From: Spirochaetia bacterium
Lineage (GTDB): Bacteria > Spirochaetota > Spirochaetia > Treponematales > Breznakiellaceae
Reading direction: 5' to 3'
Length of the DNA stretch: 10,724 nt
Assembly: GCA_025997715.1 (NCBI GenBank)
Contig: BNUY01000109.1
Span: 1-10,724 of the forward strand
The translations under genes were made by a program, and so were the position numbers. Positions 2,970-10,667 of this stretch are shown here, piece by piece. The first letter of the stretch is position 1. Each line of letters starts with the position of its first letter. The notes beneath the pieces are model-generated. The model was not told where the DNA came from, ran no database searches, and saw only the letters and a program-made list of their open reading frames with translations.

Positions 2970-3497
2970 ATGTTCAAGTTCTGCCCGGCCTGCGGCTCGC
3001 GGAATATCCGCTTTGAAAACAACAAGGTATTCCGCTGCCCCGACTGCGGGTTTTTGTATTACCATAATACCGCCGCCGCCACGGGGCTGGTCATCAGTAC
3101 CAGCGAGGAAATTGTCCTGTTGGTCCGGGCAAAGGACCCTGCCAAGGGAAAGCTGGACCTGCCCGGCGGCTTCATAGATCCCGGTGAGAGCGCCCTTGAG
3201 GGACTGCGCCGGGAATGCCGGGAGGAACTGGGCTGGGACCCGGGGCCGCATTGCACCCTTTTCGCCTCCTTCCCCAATGTCTACCCCTACCGGAACATCG
3301 TCTACAATACCTGCGATCTCTTCTTTACCATCACCGTGCCGGGGCTCAAAGCCGGAGACTTTACCCTGGAAGAGAAGGAGGTCGCGGGGCTGCGTTTTAT
3401 AAAACCCCGGGATATTACGCTTGAGGATATGGCCTTTGATTCCGGCCGCCGGGCGATACAGGCTTTTTTAAAAAGTGGACGGCAAGGAGAGGAGTAA
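2970..3497 (+). CDS. Nudix hydrolase with N-terminal zinc ribbon
   Basis: Nudix enzymes cleave nucleoside diphosphates linked to another moiety, such as NADH, ADP-ribose or (d)NTPs. The 175-residue product starts with a zinc ribbon (Cys5, Cys8, Cys23, Cys26; CPACGS and CPDCGF) and continues into a Nudix fold with an intact Nudix box at 67-89: Gly67, Glu73, then R81-E82, E85-E86 and Gly88, the metal-binding GX5EX7REUXEEXGU pattern. A SFPNVYPYRNIVYNTCDLFF block follows. The NudC-specific SQPWPFPxS motif is not seen, so it should not be called NADH pyrophosphatase; the substrate is open. The start has an AGGGG Shine-Dalgarno at 6 nt. It diverges from the thioesterase gene and converges on metA, with a hairpin repeat in between. 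Confidence 0.93.
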   Translation: MFKFCPACGSRNIRFENNKVFRCPDCGFLYYHNTAAATGLVISTSEEIVLLVRAKDPAKGKLDLPGGFIDPGESALEGLRRECREELGWDPGPHCTLFASFPNVYPYRNIVYNTCDLFFTITVPGLKAGDFTLEEKEVAGLRFIKPRDITLEDMAFDSGRRAIQAFLKSGRQGEE

Positions 3498-3555: not shown

Positions 3556-3650
3556 CTTTGAATCTTTATCAATATCATATAAATCATATGAATATACTAA
3601 GAATATAATGAAAACAAACATTCCTGTCAAGTTCCAAAATAAAAATTTAA
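3556..3650. other. AT-rich intergenic stretch next to hairpin repeat copy 1
   Basis: This stretch is sharply richer in A and T than the surrounding genes, with overlapping ATCATATAAATCATATGAATATA-type words and several -10-like hexamers (TATAAA 3578-3583, TATACT 3593-3598, TATAAT 3604-3609) but no matching -35. No open reading frame with coding character is present. The word AGTTCCAAA (3630-3638) also occurs at 9937-9945 directly before copy 2 of the repeat. It may be a small-RNA promoter region or simply unconstrained DNA; nothing decides between them. Confidence 0.5.
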
Positions 3651-3733
3651 CCACCGACCTCACTGACGCCACGGACTCCTGCTTTGTTATCTTTTCTTTT
3701 GTCCGTGTTGTCCGTGAGGTCGGTGGTTAAATT
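3644..3733. repeat. Hairpin repeat, copy 1 (33-bp inverted repeat, 24-nt loop)
   Basis: The left arm 3644-3676 and right arm 3701-3733 are inverted copies with 30 of 33 positions pairing (mispairs 3664/3713, 3668/3709, 3669/3708; the second is a G:U wobble in RNA). The arm core reads AACCACCGACCTCAC then a CACGGAC end. The pyrimidine-rich loop 3677-3700 begins TCCTGCTTT and matches the loop of copy 2 at 21 of 24 positions in the same orientation. It lies between the convergent Nudix and metA genes and ends 13 nt before the metA stop codon. No transposase or clear target duplication is visible. It could be a MITE, a REP-like element, or a bidirectional transcription barrier. Confidence 0.92.
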
Positions 3734-3746
3734 CTTAATCCATTTT

Positions 3747-4664
3747 TTATAGTTCCGCCAAATCGAAGGGTGTTTCCTGGTACACATAGTTAAGCCAGTT
3801 CCGGAAAAAGAGATGCGCATGGGCCCGCCACCGGACCACCGGGGGCTTGGAGGGGTCGTCCCCGGGGTAGTAGTTTTTGGGGACATCAATGGGTAGGCCC
3901 TTCCCCACATCCCGGCGGTATTCCCCGTCCAGGGTCAGGGGGTCGTATTCCAGATGGCCCGTAACGTAGATCTCCCGGCCATTCCGGGCGGTAGCGAAAA
4001 AGACCCCCACTTCATCGGTTTCCGACTCGATGGTCAGTTCGCGGCAATATGCAATGGCCTGCCGGTCACTTTCGGTGTGCCGGGACTGGGGAGCGAGGAA
4101 TTCGTCGTCAAAGCCCCGGAATAGGGTGCTGTTCCGCTCATTCACCCCATGGGGGAATATGCCGAAGAGCTTCTTAGGCAGTACCAGCTTGGGAACCCCG
4201 TACCGGTGGTACAGCCCCGCCTGGGCGCCCCAGCAGATATGCAGGGTGGACCAGACATACCGCGAAGAATAGTCCAGTATCGCCGCCAGTTCGCTCCAGT
4301 AGTCCACCTCCTCAAAGGGCAGGGTTTCCACCGGGGCGCCGGTGATGATCATGCCGTCATAGCGGATGTTTTGTCGGATGATATCCTCGGAACTGACGTA
4401 AAATTTTTCCAAATGCCCCGGCGGCGCGTTCCGGGATTCATGGCTCCCCATACGGAGAAAACTGATGTCCACTTGCAGGGGGCTGTTCCCCAAAAGCCGC
4501 AGCAATTGTATTTCCGTATCCACCGTGGTGGGCATGAGGTTGACAATCCCCACCTTGAGGGGACGTATGTCCTGGAGTTCCGCACGGTCTTCGGTCATAA
4601 CAAAAACATTTTCTTCCCGCAGTTCATCATAGGCGGGCAGGGTTCTGGGTATCTTAATCGGCAT
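3747..4664 (-). CDS. metA: Homoserine O-acyltransferase (MetA family), predicted acetyl-CoA-specific
   Basis: Catalyses the first committed step of methionine synthesis, activating the homoserine hydroxyl by acylation. The 305-residue length is normal. The catalytic triad is visible: Cys144 in LHICWGAQAG, His237 and Glu239 in VTGHLEYDP, each offset by +2 from E. coli Cys142, His235 and Glu237. The acyl-donor determinant after TGAP is VE, giving Glu113, which corresponds to position 111. Glu here is known to favour acetyl-CoA (as in Bacillus cereus), while Gly in E. coli favours succinyl-CoA, so this is probably an O-acetyltransferase despite the family's usual succinyltransferase label. It starts 6 nt after the tag stop codon, so the two genes should share a transcript. 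AGGAG lies about 14 nt before the ATG, further than usual. No SAM riboswitch is seen, and there is no room for one between tag and metA. Confidence 0.96.
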   Translation of the reverse strand: MPIKIPRTLPAYDELREENVFVMTEDRAELQDIRPLKVGIVNLMPTTVDTEIQLLRLLGNSPLQVDISFLRMGSHESRNAPPGHLEKFYVSSEDIIRQNIRYDGMIITGAPVETLPFEEVDYWSELAAILDYSSRYVWSTLHICWGAQAGLYHRYGVPKLVLPKKLFGIFPHGVNERNSTLFRGFDDEFLAPQSRHTESDRQAIAYCRELTIESETDEVGVFFATARNGREIYVTGHLEYDPLTLDGEYRRDVGKGLPIDVPKNYYPGDDPSKPPVVRWRAHAHLFFRNWLNYVYQETPFDLAEL

Positions 4665-5916: not shown

Positions 5917-7007
5917 AGAAAATTAACGTAGGTATCCTGTTCGGCGGCAAATCTGCGGAGCATGAGGTTTCCCTCCAATCGGCAAAAAACGTTTTCGACG
6001 CCATTGACCGGAAAAAGTACAACCCCATCCTTATCGGCATCGACAAAAGCGGGCGCTGGCTCCTGAACGAGGGCGCCGGGTTTCTCCTCAACGCCGATGA
6101 TCCCAAAACCATACGGCTCAACCAGTCCAGCGACGCCGTGGTCCTGGCCCCCCAGAGCGGCGGCCGGATTTCCAACCTCACGGATATCACGAAGGAAAAA
6201 TCCATCGACGTAATTTTCCCCATCCTCCACGGCCCCTTTGGCGAGGACGGCACCGTCCAGGGCCTCCTCAAGCTGGCGGACATCCCCTTTGTGGGCCCCG
6301 GTGTTTTAGGTTCCGCCGTGGGCATGGACAAGGATGTGATGAAGCGCCTCCTCCGGGATGCCGGCATCCCCATCGGCCACTTCCTGACCCTGCAATCCCA
6401 CGAACCGCTCCCGCCCTTTAAGAAAATCGTCAAGGCCCTGGGGCTGCCGCTCTTCGTAAAGCCCGCCAACATGGGCTCCTCGGTGGGCATCAGCAAGGTG
6501 CATAACGAAGGGGAATACGAGAAGTCGGTCAAAAACGCCTTTGCCTACGACACCAAAATTATCCTGGAGGAATTCATCAAGGGCCGGGAGATTGAATGCG
6601 CGATCCTGGGTAATGAAGAGGTCACCGCATCCCTTCCCGGGGAAGTGATCCCCACCCACGAGTTCTATTCCTACGAATCAAAATACCTGGACGAAAACGG
6701 CGCAATCCTGAAGATTCCCGCCGACCTACCCAAGGGGATTATCAAAAAAATCCAGGCCCTGGGGATCAAAACCTTTCAAACCCTCTGCTGCGAGGGCCTT
6801 TCCCGGGTGGACTTCTTCCTCAAAGAGGATAACACCATTATGGTCAACGAAATCAACACCATGCCGGGCTTTACCCGTATCAGTATGTACCCAAAACTGT
6901 GGGGCGCCGGTGGAATTTCTTACACGAAATTGATCAATGTTCTGATAGACTTGGCCATCCGGCGCTATAAGAAGGAAAAGAAGCTGAAAACCAGTTACAT
7001 CGGCTAA
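5913..7007 (+). CDS. ddlA: D-alanine--D-alanine ligase, DdlA type
   Basis: ATP-grasp enzyme that joins two D-alanines for the peptidoglycan pentapeptide. The 364 residues equal E. coli DdlA in length, and many blocks are shared: LFGGKSAEHEVSLQSAK (9-25, Glu18), HGPFGEDGT (106-114), MDKDVMKRLLRDAGIP, PLFVKPANMGSSVGISKV, KGREIECAILGNE, and RVDFFL with Asp300, plus NEINTMPGF with Glu313 and Asn315 as the magnesium ligands (offset +43 from E. coli DdlB Asp257, Glu270, Asn272). The omega-loop sequence EFYSYESKY (250-258) ends in Tyr258, where D-Ala-D-Lac ligases such as that of Leuconostoc carry Phe, so a D-Ala-D-Ala product and ordinary vancomycin-susceptible cell wall are predicted. The start is fixed by the 4-nt ATGA overlap with the Uma2 gene, suggesting coupled translation. 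Confidence 0.97.
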   Translation: MKKINVGILFGGKSAEHEVSLQSAKNVFDAIDRKKYNPILIGIDKSGRWLLNEGAGFLLNADDPKTIRLNQSSDAVVLAPQSGGRISNLTDITKEKSIDVIFPILHGPFGEDGTVQGLLKLADIPFVGPGVLGSAVGMDKDVMKRLLRDAGIPIGHFLTLQSHEPLPPFKKIVKALGLPLFVKPANMGSSVGISKVHNEGEYEKSVKNAFAYDTKIILEEFIKGREIECAILGNEEVTASLPGEVIPTHEFYSYESKYLDENGAILKIPADLPKGIIKKIQALGIKTFQTLCCEGLSRVDFFLKEDNTIMVNEINTMPGFTRISMYPKLWGAGGISYTKLINVLIDLAIRRYKKEKKLKTSYIG

Positions 7008-7028: not shown

Positions 7029-9923
7029 ATGCAGCTTTATAAAAAACCCCATCTATTGAACCTCTTAGTTCGCGTTGCCTTAGCCCTTACCCTGATAACG
7101 GCAATCATCTCCTGCGCCGGTACGGGAAAGCCTGCTAATGACGCCTCCCTCTACAACGGCCTCGGTGCGCCCACGGATCCCATCCCTTTCACCGCCGATG
7201 CCCGGACCGGTACACTCCCCGGCGGTTTGAAATATTACATCCTGGAAAACGCTATGCCCGAAGGCCGGGCCTACCTGACCCTGGCGGTCAACGCCGGTTC
7301 GGTGCTGGAAAAGGATGACGAGCAGGGGCTGGCCCACTTTGTGGAACATCTGGCCTTTAACGACACCGAGCGCTTCCCGAAAAGCGACCTGATAGAGTAT
7401 CTCCGATCCCTGGGGATGCGCTTTGGGGCGGATGTGAATGCGTACACTTCCTACGACCAAACGGTCTACGGCATTGAAGTTCCGGTGGAAACCAACCAGG
7501 CGGGGCGCAAGGTCATCCCCGAAAAGGCCCTGGCGGTGATTGACGACTGGACCCATCGCGTTACCTTCGCCCCGGAAGAGGTGGAGAAAGAGCGGGGGGT
7601 TGTCATAGAAGAACACCGGACCCGTTTGGGCGCCAATGACCGGCTTATCCAAAAAATCCTCCCCCTTATCTACCGGGGCAGCCCTTATGCAGAGCGCCGC
7701 CCCATCGGGCTTCCCGAAATTATCCAAACCGTCCCGAGGGAGCGGCTTGTCAATTTTTACCGCACCTGGTACCGGGCGGATAACATGGCCCTGGTCTTTG
7801 TGGGGGACTTTGACGGAGCTGCCCTGGAGTCGGAACTTGCCGCCAACTTTACTATTGCGCCGCCGGAGACACCGCTCGAACGGCCGGTCTATAACCTGCC
7901 GGAACCCAAAAAGGGGAGCTTTACGGTTGATATATTCACCGATCCGGAACTTACCAGCACCCGGTTTGATCTCTACTATAAAATGCCCTCCGATAAGGCC
8001 CCTCCGGACTTGGCTTCCTACCGGCGGGGCTTAATCGATGCGCTTGCCGACCGGATGATAGAAATGCGCTTTTCGGAAGCAGGCTACAACCCGGAAACCC
8101 CGTATGCCGCCGCCGGGGCAGGTATCTCCAATATTACCCGGAACTCCCGGTATTACACGATGGTGGTCATTGCCAAACCCGGCAGGGCCGAAGACTCCCT
8201 CAATGCGTTGCTCCTCGAAAAGGAAAAGCTGGCCCGGTACGGCTTTACCGGCGCAGAAATCGATCAGGCAAAACGCTCCTTCCTGGCGGACACAGAACGT
8301 TGGGTTTCCGAAAAAGACCGGCATCATTCATCGGGCTACTTAAACGATTTTGTTTCCTACTTCATCAGGGGCGATCCGGTTACCGACGCGGTGTGGGATC
8401 TGGAAGCTTGTACCAAAATGCTTCCCGGCATTACCGCCGCTGAACTCGCCGCCGCCGCCAAGAGCTATTTTGCCTCCAATGACCTTACCCTTTTTGTCAG
8501 TGCCCCGGAGTCCGAAGCGGCAACCCTGCCTACCCCGGACCGTATCCGCACACTGGTACGGCAAAGCGCCCGCACCCGCATCCCCCGCCCGGTGAACCAG
8601 GCCATGGACGATAAACTGTTGGACACCATCCCTGTGCCGGGCAGCATTGTTAACGAAAGTACGGATACTGCGAGCGGGACCACCCGGTGGGAACTGAGCA
8701 ACGGCGCCAAGGTCATCCTTAAGGAAACGAAAAATAAGAACAACGAGATCGTCCTCTCCGCCCTGGCGAGGGGGGGAACCACATCCGTGCCGGAAGCGCA
8801 GATCATTTCCGCAAACCTTGCCGACGCACTGGCGGGCGCCTCCGGTATCGGACGCTATTCCGAACCGGACCTCATGAAGAAACTTGCGGACAAACAGGTT
8901 TCCCTTTTCTTCTCCTTTTCGGGCTACAGCCGGAGTTTCCAGGGCACATCCACCCAGGGGGATTTGAAGACCTTCTTTGAACTCCTCTACCTGAATTTTA
9001 CGGAGCCCCGGATAGAACAGGATGCGGCCGACTCCGTTCTCGACGGCTACCGCACCTCCCTGGCCCAGCAAGACCAAGACCCGGAATCGGTCTTTTCCGA
9101 TGAGTATACCCGGCTGGTGACCGGCGGAAACCCCTGGTTCCAGCCCATGGTCCTTGCCGATTTAGAGCGGGTAAACACCGCCGACTCCCTGGCGCTTATC
9201 AGGAAAGCCAGGAACCCCGCAGACTACACCTTTGTTTTCACCGGGAACCTTGAGCTTGCCGTCCTGCGTCCCCTTATCGAAACGTATCTGGCTTCCATCA
9301 TGCCCGGCGAAAGCTGGAATACCTGGACGGATACCAACATCAAGCGTCCGGGAAAGGTCGAAAAGTCCATCTATAAGGGCAAGGAAGAGAAGAGCCTCAT
9401 TATTATGGAGTGGCTGCTTACCCAGGAGTATTCAGAAACCCGGGATGCAATAGCGGATGTACTCAGCGAGTATCTTGAAAATAAAATGGAGAAGAAAATC
9501 CGGGAAGAAATGGGCGGCGCGTACTCCCCTTCCGTGTGGGTATCCCAGTCAATCCTGCCCCCCGGTGGTGAACTCACCATGGGTGTGTACTTTCCCTGCG
9601 ACCCCAAAAGGGTTCCGGAACTCCGGGCCGCCGTCCTCGCCGAACTGGACTTGGCAGCCAAAGGGACCATTGACCAGGATGCGCTTACCAAGTCGATAGA
9701 AGGCCTAAAGAAATCCTTTGCCAACTCCCTTCAAAATAATGCCTACATCGCCCGGAACTACGCCGACCTTGCCGTCCGCTATGGGCTCCCATTGGACCGG
9801 CTGGAGCAGCGTCCCGCACTCTACGAAGCCGTCACCGCCCGCGACATTCAGCAGACGGTAGCCGCACTGTTACCCCGGGGTCCCGTTACGGTGATCCTTT
9901 ACCCTGAAACACAAAGGAAGTAA
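7029..9923 (+). CDS. M16 family zinc metallopeptidase, predicted lipoprotein (PqqL/pitrilysin-like)
   Basis: The N-terminus is a lipoprotein signal: Lys/Arg-containing start, hydrophobic stretch at about 8-27 and lipobox IIS-Cys29, giving an export-dependent, membrane-anchored protein. An active M16 domain follows (about 45-490) with the inverted zinc motif HFVEH: ligands His103 and His107, catalytic Glu106, and probable third ligand Glu195 in ERGVVIEEHR (188-197). The second half (about 545-960) is a second M16 domain without HxxEH, carrying the RxxxGGAYSPSV substrate-binding Arg/Tyr pattern near residue 830. The 964-residue length fits two-domain PqqL-like peptidases. The likely role is degradation of peptides at the periplasmic face of the envelope. 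It starts 21 nt after ddlA and ends before hairpin repeat copy 2. An AAGGAG after its stop codon has no start codon downstream. No frameshift is seen. Confidence 0.93.
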   Translation: MQLYKKPHLLNLLVRVALALTLITAIISCAGTGKPANDASLYNGLGAPTDPIPFTADARTGTLPGGLKYYILENAMPEGRAYLTLAVNAGSVLEKDDEQGLAHFVEHLAFNDTERFPKSDLIEYLRSLGMRFGADVNAYTSYDQTVYGIEVPVETNQAGRKVIPEKALAVIDDWTHRVTFAPEEVEKERGVVIEEHRTRLGANDRLIQKILPLIYRGSPYAERRPIGLPEIIQTVPRERLVNFYRTWYRADNMALVFVGDFDGAALESELAANFTIAPPETPLERPVYNLPEPKKGSFTVDIFTDPELTSTRFDLYYKMPSDKAPPDLASYRRGLIDALADRMIEMRFSEAGYNPETPYAAAGAGISNITRNSRYYTMVVIAKPGRAEDSLNALLLEKEKLARYGFTGAEIDQAKRSFLADTERWVSEKDRHHSSGYLNDFVSYFIRGDPVTDAVWDLEACTKMLPGITAAELAAAAKSYFASNDLTLFVSAPESEAATLPTPDRIRTLVRQSARTRIPRPVNQAMDDKLLDTIPVPGSIVNESTDTASGTTRWELSNGAKVILKETKNKNNEIVLSALARGGTTSVPEAQIISANLADALAGASGIGRYSEPDLMKKLADKQVSLFFSFSGYSRSFQGTSTQGDLKTFFELLYLNFTEPRIEQDAADSVLDGYRTSLAQQDQDPESVFSDEYTRLVTGGNPWFQPMVLADLERVNTADSLALIRKARNPADYTFVFTGNLELAVLRPLIETYLASIMPGESWNTWTDTNIKRPGKVEKSIYKGKEEKSLIIMEWLLTQEYSETRDAIADVLSEYLENKMEKKIREEMGGAYSPSVWVSQSILPPGGELTMGVYFPCDPKRVPELRAAVLAELDLAAKGTIDQDALTKSIEGLKKSFANSLQNNAYIARNYADLAVRYGLPLDRLEQRPALYEAVTARDIQQTVAALLPRGPVTVILYPETQRK

Positions 9924-9942
9924 AAGGAGCTGAGCCAGTTCC

Positions 9943-10024
9943 AAACCACAGACCTCACGGACAACACGGACTCCTGCTTTCTTATCCTTTCCTTTGTCCG
10001 TGTTGTCAGTGAGGTCTGTGGTTT
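9943..10024. repeat. Hairpin repeat, copy 2 (29-bp inverted repeat, 24-nt loop)
   Basis: The left arm 9943-9971 and right arm 9996-10024 are inverted copies with 28 of 29 positions pairing; the only mispair is 9959/10008. The arm core reads AAACCACAGACCTCAC then GGACAACACGGAC. The loop 9972-9995 is the same pyrimidine-rich sequence as in copy 1 (21 of 24 identical, same orientation). It occupies the gap between the convergent M16 peptidase and metallo-hydrolase genes, and its last two bases are part of the hydrolase stop codon (10025-10023). It starts 19 nt after the peptidase stop. The preceding AGTTCCAAA word is shared with copy 1. It may act as a bidirectional transcription barrier or be a mobile palindromic element. 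Confidence 0.93.
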
Positions 10025-10667
10025 AATAAACGTTGTTTGCTTCATCCCCAATGCTTGTCTTTGGCCCATGTCCGGGATACACGGTAATGTCCCTGTCCAG
10101 GGTGGCAAGGCGGCGGAGGCTTTGCTGAATCTGAGGCCAACTGCCGCCGGGGAGGTCCGTGCGGCCGCAGTCGCCCCGGAACATGGTGTCCCCGCTAAAG
10201 AGGACCTGTGCCGCCTGGTCGAGGAAGCCCACGGAACCCTGGGTGTGGCCCGGAAGGTGCAGGGTGGTAAAGGGGCCGATGACGCTCCCCTCCGTAAGCA
10301 GTTCATCCGCCTGAGGCATGTCCTTCCAGAGGGCGTCCACGTAGCCGGAGTCCCCCGCAGCCGCAGTGAAGCTTATCCGATGGGGTTCGTAGGCGCCGGG
10401 GCCCAGGTATTGCCCGTCCTCCCGGTGAATGGCAATCACCGGCCTCGGGTCCGCATAGGCGGCCGCAAGGTCGGGTAGGGCGGCGATATGGTCAAAGTGG
10501 CCGTGGGTTAGTAGAATATACCGGGGCCGCAGATTGAGCCGCTTAAGCCGGGATATGATGGCATCAGGGTCCGCGCCGGGGTCGATGACGGCGCACTCAC
10601 CGCCATCATCCCAGGTATAAAGCCAGCAGTTGGTCGCGATAGCTCCCACAACAAGTAGTTCTGTCAT
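10023..10667 (-). CDS. Metallo-beta-lactamase-fold hydrolase, glyoxalase-II-like
   Basis: The 214-residue product has all binuclear zinc ligands of the glyoxalase II branch: His55, His57, Asp59 and His60 in THGHFDHIAA, His141 in LPGHTQGS, Asp160 in FSGDTMFRGDCGRTDLPGG, and His200 in VYPGHGPKT. This length and the GRTDLPGG block fit YcbL-type single-domain members, which hydrolyse S-D-lactoylglutathione or related thioesters. It lacks the C-terminal helical domain of classical GloB, so the true substrate is uncertain. It is cytoplasmic, with no signal peptide. A -10 hexamer ends 6 nt before the ATG, and the bases immediately upstream in the mRNA (ACCTCC) are the opposite of a Shine-Dalgarno. 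It converges on the M16 peptidase gene, and its stop codon overlaps the hairpin repeat by two bases. Confidence 0.94.
   Translation of the reverse strand: MTELLVVGAIATNCWLYTWDDGGECAVIDPGADPDAIISRLKRLNLRPRYILLTHGHFDHIAALPDLAAAYADPRPVIAIHREDGQYLGPGAYEPHRISFTAAAGDSGYVDALWKDMPQADELLTEGSVIGPFTTLHLPGHTQGSVGFLDQAAQVLFSGDTMFRGDCGRTDLPGGSWPQIQQSLRRLATLDRDITVYPGHGPKTSIGDEANNVY

Follow-up and report, generated by a model that had tools for sequence, protein, structure and literature searches.

Hairpins between convergent genes of a spirochaete draft genome are decayed copies of a MITE family often found at gene 3' ends

The DNA analysed here (the window, 10,724 bp) is contig 109 of a draft spirochaete genome (G000; 3.38 Mb, 447 contigs, 77% complete), and carries two long hairpins, each located in the gap between a pair of convergent genes. 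Copy 1 is flanked by a NUDIX gene (forward strand, ending at 3497) and a homoserine O-succinyltransferase gene (reverse strand, stop codon at 3747-3749), and copy 2 by an M16 peptidase gene (forward strand, stop codon at 9921-9923) and a metallo-beta-lactamase-fold gene on the reverse strand. The features are as follows.

3630..3642, forward strand: copy 1, outer-end remnant with sequence AGTTCCAAAATAA, part of the outer end GAGCCAGTTCCAAAATA
3640..3676, forward strand: copy 1, left arm
3677..3700, forward strand: copy 1, loop
3701..3737, forward strand: copy 1, right arm; the right outer end is gone
9932..9945, forward strand: copy 2, left outer end with sequence GAGCCAGTTCCAAA, continuous with the arm
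9943..9971, forward strand: copy 2, left arm
9972..9995, forward strand: copy 2, loop
9996..10024, forward strand: copy 2, right arm; the right outer end is gone
10023..10025, reverse strand: stop codon of the metallo-beta-lactamase-fold gene; it shares the last two bases of the copy 2 right arm

The two copies are 88% identical across 84 nt in the same orientation at a spacing of 6295 bp, and their loops are equal at 21 of 24 positions. The arms of copy 1 (37 nt) are 89% complementary and those of copy 2 (29 nt) 97% complementary. Folding energies were -51.4 to -54.7 kcal/mol for both copies, compared with averages between -17.5 and -22.9 for shuffled sequences (z from -9.3 to -12.6), and on each of the four strands none of 200 shuffles was as stable. 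An earlier note on this DNA had placed two copies about 6.2 kb apart, each in a convergent gap and with a loop conserved at 21 of 24 positions in the same orientation, and had taken them for one homologous element instead of two unrelated terminators. The places, gaps and loops were borne out, as was the homology, by the identity over 84 nt and by a genome-wide family. Location in convergent gaps and strong folding of both copies would equally suit two unrelated terminators alike by chance, but the 88% identity includes the loop, and this reading, to which we give next to no credence, was refuted by the genome-wide hairpin family. Rfam contained no match at the gathering score for the window (scores of 27.8 and 21.7 bits, against cut-offs of 211 and 70) or for six further element loci.

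Searching the genome with copy 1 as query returned at least 81 pieces at E<=1 with both strands counted, so that many places are counted twice; this count rests on scoring of 40 of the 89 first-look candidates. When copy 1 and two more queries were used, hairpin relatives merged into 44 intervals across the stretches of the draft genome that were fetched. The earlier note had proposed such a search, and the result goes well beyond the two window copies. Six of the 38 genomes searched, including the source genome, had matches at E<=0.001 (46 in G000, 39 in G001, 19 in G008, 8 in G015, 3 in G010 and 2 in G004). A scan for a 16-mer taken from loop and arm found 106 stretches, among them the 'Spirochaetia bacterium' records MS499-40, MS502-68 and others, which we take to come from termite guts; matches of this 16-mer outside the spirochaetes are taken to be mostly chance. 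The same 16-mer gave six stretches in a viral scan, and one full element used as query had no match in the phage and plasmid collections.

Many hairpin copies are located within elements of approximately 90-190 bp that are bounded by inverted ends GAGCCAGTTCCAAAATA (GAGCC ends), and around many copies the palindrome extends into GAGCCAGTTCCAAAATA on one or both sides. At up to two mismatches GAGCCAGTTCCAAAATA matched 75 times in G000, and a reversed-pattern control did not match. At up to one mismatch it was present in six of 20 genomes (59 matches in G000, 48 in G001, 22 in G008, 2 in G010 and 1 each in G002 and G004), with no control matches. We paired facing ends with a 4-mismatch rule among the loci fetched, which gave 41 pairs including some false ones, none of them removed. 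An identical flanking 4-mer was found in 23 of these 41 pairs, compared with a mean of 1.5 and a maximum of 7 in 2000 shuffled pairings; some of the 18 pairs that lack the duplication are false pairs of the loose rule. By manual count, ANNT fits 15 of the 23 duplications. Several word types occur between GAGCC ends, namely CACGAAT, CGCGAAT and CGCAAAGG in G000 and CACGGAT in G001. A full member has outer inverted ends GAGCCAGTTCCAAAATA around a long hairpin with a loop, the arms of which are built of AACCAC and repeated short words. The window copies keep at most one outer end each, with no right end and no target duplication. Each hairpin of the window is a decayed member of a family of small mobile elements with many copies.

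We then compared sites between G000 and its relative G001, which share flanks of mostly 93-98% identity (76% on one side of copy 2). At site C9b, G001 has a 104-bp element with a duplicated ATCT directly 3' of a TAG stop codon; G000 has none there, and its sequence is two bases short of a letter-perfect empty site. At site C9a the element is present in G000 and absent from G001. Sites C95b and C62 are occupied in both genomes, duplications included. The check for target duplications and empty sites that the earlier note had suggested yielded both, with duplications in 23 of 41 pairs and with filled and empty sites.

Sites C62 and C33 are approximately 15 bp longer in G001, owing to a micropalindrome in an arm. 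Micropalindromes of this kind, approximately 15-25 bp long (CAGACCTTTGGTCTG, CGAACCAAAGGTTCG, ACTTTTCCACTCTTTGGGTGGAAAAGT), were seen within the hairpin arms of five loci (L087, L318, L011, L162 and L233). Two of them (L087, on G001 contig C41 at site C33, and L318, on G001 contig C4 at site C62) are missing at the same site in G000.

Other sites differ in content. At site C54 the flank and end are equal in the two genomes and the words differ (CACGAAT in G000, CACGGAT in G001); G000 keeps both ends and a duplicated ACCT, and G001 is without the right end. The copy 2 gap in G001 holds a copy with its loop reversed, and the peptidase frame closes inside its end (GAG CCA GTT CCA AAA TAA). The copy 1 site has lost its left arm in G001, and in G003 (a single contig of 4,059,867 bp, presumably Treponema primitia) it consists of 45 bp that could not be aligned; copy 1 against G003 is counted with C9b and C9a among the sites occupied in one genome and lacking in another. 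Sites C95a and C11 hold different elements in G000 and G001. The varied contents of C54, C95a, C11 and the gaps of copies 1 and 2 suggest that these gaps are often refilled or rearranged; refilling may have occurred by independent insertion or by conversion, which would look the same in these comparisons. On G000 contig C95, at approximately 6440-6761 (L197:5241-5562), there is a composite of four GAGCC ends whose flanks map to two G001 contigs, C6 and C10, a split that may reflect either rearrangement where the elements lie or an error of assembly. A synteny search with L206 against G001 and G003 found little.

The earlier note had called the element REP- or MITE-like. The second half of this description stands for the family, and the first does not. 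The elements are short and non-coding with terminal inverted repeats, and they duplicate a fixed length of target (4 bp, absent at the window copies). They have moved, as indicated by the filled and empty sites and by two identical 152-bp copies of a second end type in different flanks. Nearly the same ends flank an intact transposase frame in a relative, G008, and may thus be shared with an autonomous insertion sequence. The family are MITEs and not REPs. REP elements, for which a Y1 (RAYT-type) transposase provides mobility, are likewise palindromic, intergenic and multi-copy, but 4-bp duplications speak against this origin. G000 has a single Y1 fragment, the first 4 kb of whose contig is without the arm motif, and no Y1 was found in G001, G008, G170, G179 or G212, all of which carry the hairpin or its arm grammar. 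The hairpin-bearing G001 and G008 are both incomplete; in the wider survey a Y1 transposase was present in 36 of 65 genomes, and the grammar-rich G170, G179 and G212 were without it. No Y1 gene flanked by the repeats was found, and the REP/RAYT reading, which we regard as very improbable, was rejected.

A candidate source of mobility was found in G008. This genome has an intact open frame of 376 aa with DDE_Tnp_1 and DUF772 domains, located between GAGCTAGTTGCAAAATA and GAGCCAGTTGCAAAATA; the ends of this copy differ slightly from GAGCCAGTTCC, and no 4-bp duplication was found around it. On G008 contig C90, the pieces of a broken transposase relative start 26 bp after the first base of GAGCCAGTTCCAAAATT. 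Matches to the transposase occurred in 9 of 38 genomes, and none was found in G000 (77% complete) or G001 (69% complete). The G008 protein has the same pair of domains as insertion sequences of the IS5 and IS1182 types; NCBIfam likewise puts it near these two families, at 59 and 54 bits, far below the respective cut-offs of 270 and 140. The ends and their duplications are observed in the family itself, and from this relative we infer that a DDE transposase of a related insertion sequence would act in trans on the ends and duplicate 4 bp of target.

The same hairpin class was also found between ends of the CAGCAATTCTAAATT type. Among 15 pairs of CAGCAATTC ends, at least seven of nine flanking bases matched in five (shuffled mean 0.33, maximum 3), and in three all nine matched, which are 9-bp duplications; the CAGCAATTC copies L014 and L323 have offset repeats visible by eye, scored low and were counted as misses. 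The two identical second-type copies of 152 bp are L018 and L019 in G000, and a second-type copy in G008, which belongs to another genus, is identical to them at 147 of 153 positions (L144). Such identity suggests that the element moved recently and perhaps passed from one genus to another. At four G008 loci (L224, L226, L230 and L236) a CAGCAATTC-like end comes approximately 12 bp after a GAGCC end, an arrangement that looks like one element nested in another. MITEs are usually described with one end pair and one interior. Here one hairpin class occurs on two end types and one end type has several hairpins, so that cargo and ends seem to evolve apart.

The arms follow a wider grammar (AACCAC-xRA-(2-4)-CAC-xRA-(2-4)-CAC-xRA), which was found in 27 of 149 spirochaete genomes, G000 included, with three control matches in total. 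In a further 34 genomes, reached via the loci of the 16-mer scan, it was found in eight, again with three control matches. These non-spirochaete carriers are Desulfonema magnum, Sinomicrobium (one match) and six MAGs labelled Poribacteria, Acidobacteriaceae, Planctomycetota, Akkermansia, Opitutaceae and 'bacterium'. The words differ between genomes; some of the matches elsewhere are palindromes and many are single arms, and the null of this check sometimes overlapped a true arm.

These observations raise the question of whether the hairpin is a palindrome in its own right, with an AACCAC cap and genome-specific words, that is tied to no one transposon and is picked up by different ends; the window copies would then be such cargo and the MITE ends secondary. 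Such an origin, which is compatible with our main reading, would account for one hairpin class on both GAGCC ends with 4-bp duplications and CAGCAATTC ends with 9-bp duplications, for the several word types held by GAGCC ends, for the different words beside the same flank and end at site C54, and for the arm grammar in 27 of 149 spirochaete and 8 of 34 other genomes. However, we saw neither an intermediate nor a mechanism of capture, site C54 could represent two independent insertions at one target, and the grammar matches elsewhere are only partly palindromes, so that a loose grammar may join unrelated repeats. We consider this origin unlikely. A bolder form of the idea, equally far from convincing us though perhaps a little easier to entertain, is that a palindrome shared across phyla (AACCAC cap, repeated CACxRA-type words, with particular words preferred in each genome) would be a modular stop-and-terminate cassette, which unrelated ends capture and carry to stop codons and convergent gaps, and whose words are rewritten jointly in both arms.

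Returning to the MITE family itself, we analysed its position relative to genes, which were called with a codon-usage script that missed a gene read at 2517-2926. No called gene contained any of the 66 intervals on the list, which merging reduced to 61 ahead of the tests. Five of the 43 hairpin copies had no gene on one side and were excluded from the orientation test; the remaining 38 comprised 12 in convergent, 23 in tandem and 3 in divergent gaps, compared with 13, 73 and 17 of the 103 element-free gaps in the same stretches. The excess in convergent gaps (12/38 against 13/103) gave a Fisher p of 0.011, and the depletion in divergent gaps by gap count was not significant (p=0.15). The earlier note had anticipated a link with convergent gaps: the enrichment is present at this modest level, but most copies (23/38) are in tandem gaps. 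The 3' end was the closer one for 17 of the 23 copies in tandem gaps (p=0.017). Of the 43 hairpin copies, 20 overlapped a 3' end or had one no more than 15 bp away.

Stop codons were often close to the element. Thirteen gene ends lay near a GAGCC end: four stop exactly 2 bp before it, three straddle its edge as T/GA, one stops at base 18 inside it and five stop 5-16 bp before it. The GAGCC end carries its own stops, the T/GA if the target ends in T and a TAA or TAG finishing at base 18, and insertion at the edge of a gene therefore closes the reading frame. The sites examined were intergenic with respect to the predicted genes, and frequently located at a stop codon. Insertion at a stop codon by an end that supplies its own stop is a simple route by which a mobile element could become harmless at gene ends, and perhaps also of use as a transcript boundary.

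Because of its stability, symmetry and position, the hairpin at a gene 3' end is a plausible two-way barrier to transcripts; it would most probably act as such, or would at least be tolerated there. The earlier note had proposed recruitment as bidirectional transcription barriers, with which the positions are consistent. The same positional bias would result from target choice combined with purging of harmful insertions. A purely selfish MITE with no host role could owe its placement to AT-rich, ANNT-like targets and to loss from genes and promoters. This is in keeping with ANNT in 15 of the 23 duplications and with the presence of 3 of 38 copies in promoter-rich divergent gaps. It is also in keeping with three results obtained on the hairpins, which count against the barrier: no match in a terminator scan, which allows loops of 3-8 nt only and was applied to hairpin loops of 24 nt; no strand preference in loop orientation (10 same and 11 opposite in tandem gaps, 6 and 6 in convergent gaps); and no compensatory changes in the CGGAC class of 25 copies (0/22 pairs). 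However, nearly all of these 25 copies retain the paired trinucleotides, and the bases between them vary. This pattern suggests that sequence words, and not pairing alone, are constrained or copied; it looks like constraint, though copying could also explain it. A wholly selfish element is possible in our view, if the less probable case. We favour, as probably correct, the MITE reading as a whole, with ends mobilised in trans and a 4-bp duplication, and with a 3'-end hairpin that would serve as a two-way barrier or be tolerated.

Among the papers searched, none contained any of six long motif strings. Among the matches listed, papers naming both MITEs and Treponema have neither term in title or abstract, and no title in a short-motif search concerned such repeats. 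That the grammar recurs in distant phyla suggests a large class of repeats, for which our searches found no clear published description. The closest comparisons are by description. In PMC2700814, the multicopy short-word repeats of Geobacter metallireducens include a class 4 with the consensus word CCYTC; this word differs, and the class may or may not follow the AACCAC grammar. The SPRITE repeats of Streptococcus pneumoniae, as outlined in PMC10969869, are likewise terminator-like and intergenic, with elements nested in one another; the spirochaete element has a 24-nt loop and no U-tract recognised, and is likened to them by description and not by sequence or ends. The Chunjie MITE of Geobacter uraniireducens, as presented in the same review, is likewise short and non-coding with inverted ends and direct repeats, and has dozens of copies, mostly intergenic and many partial. 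In contrast to Chunjie as described there, the spirochaete element is filled by a hairpin built of words, has two kinds of ends and shows a concentration of insertions at stop codons. We take it to be a new variety of the bacterial MITE, an already known kind.
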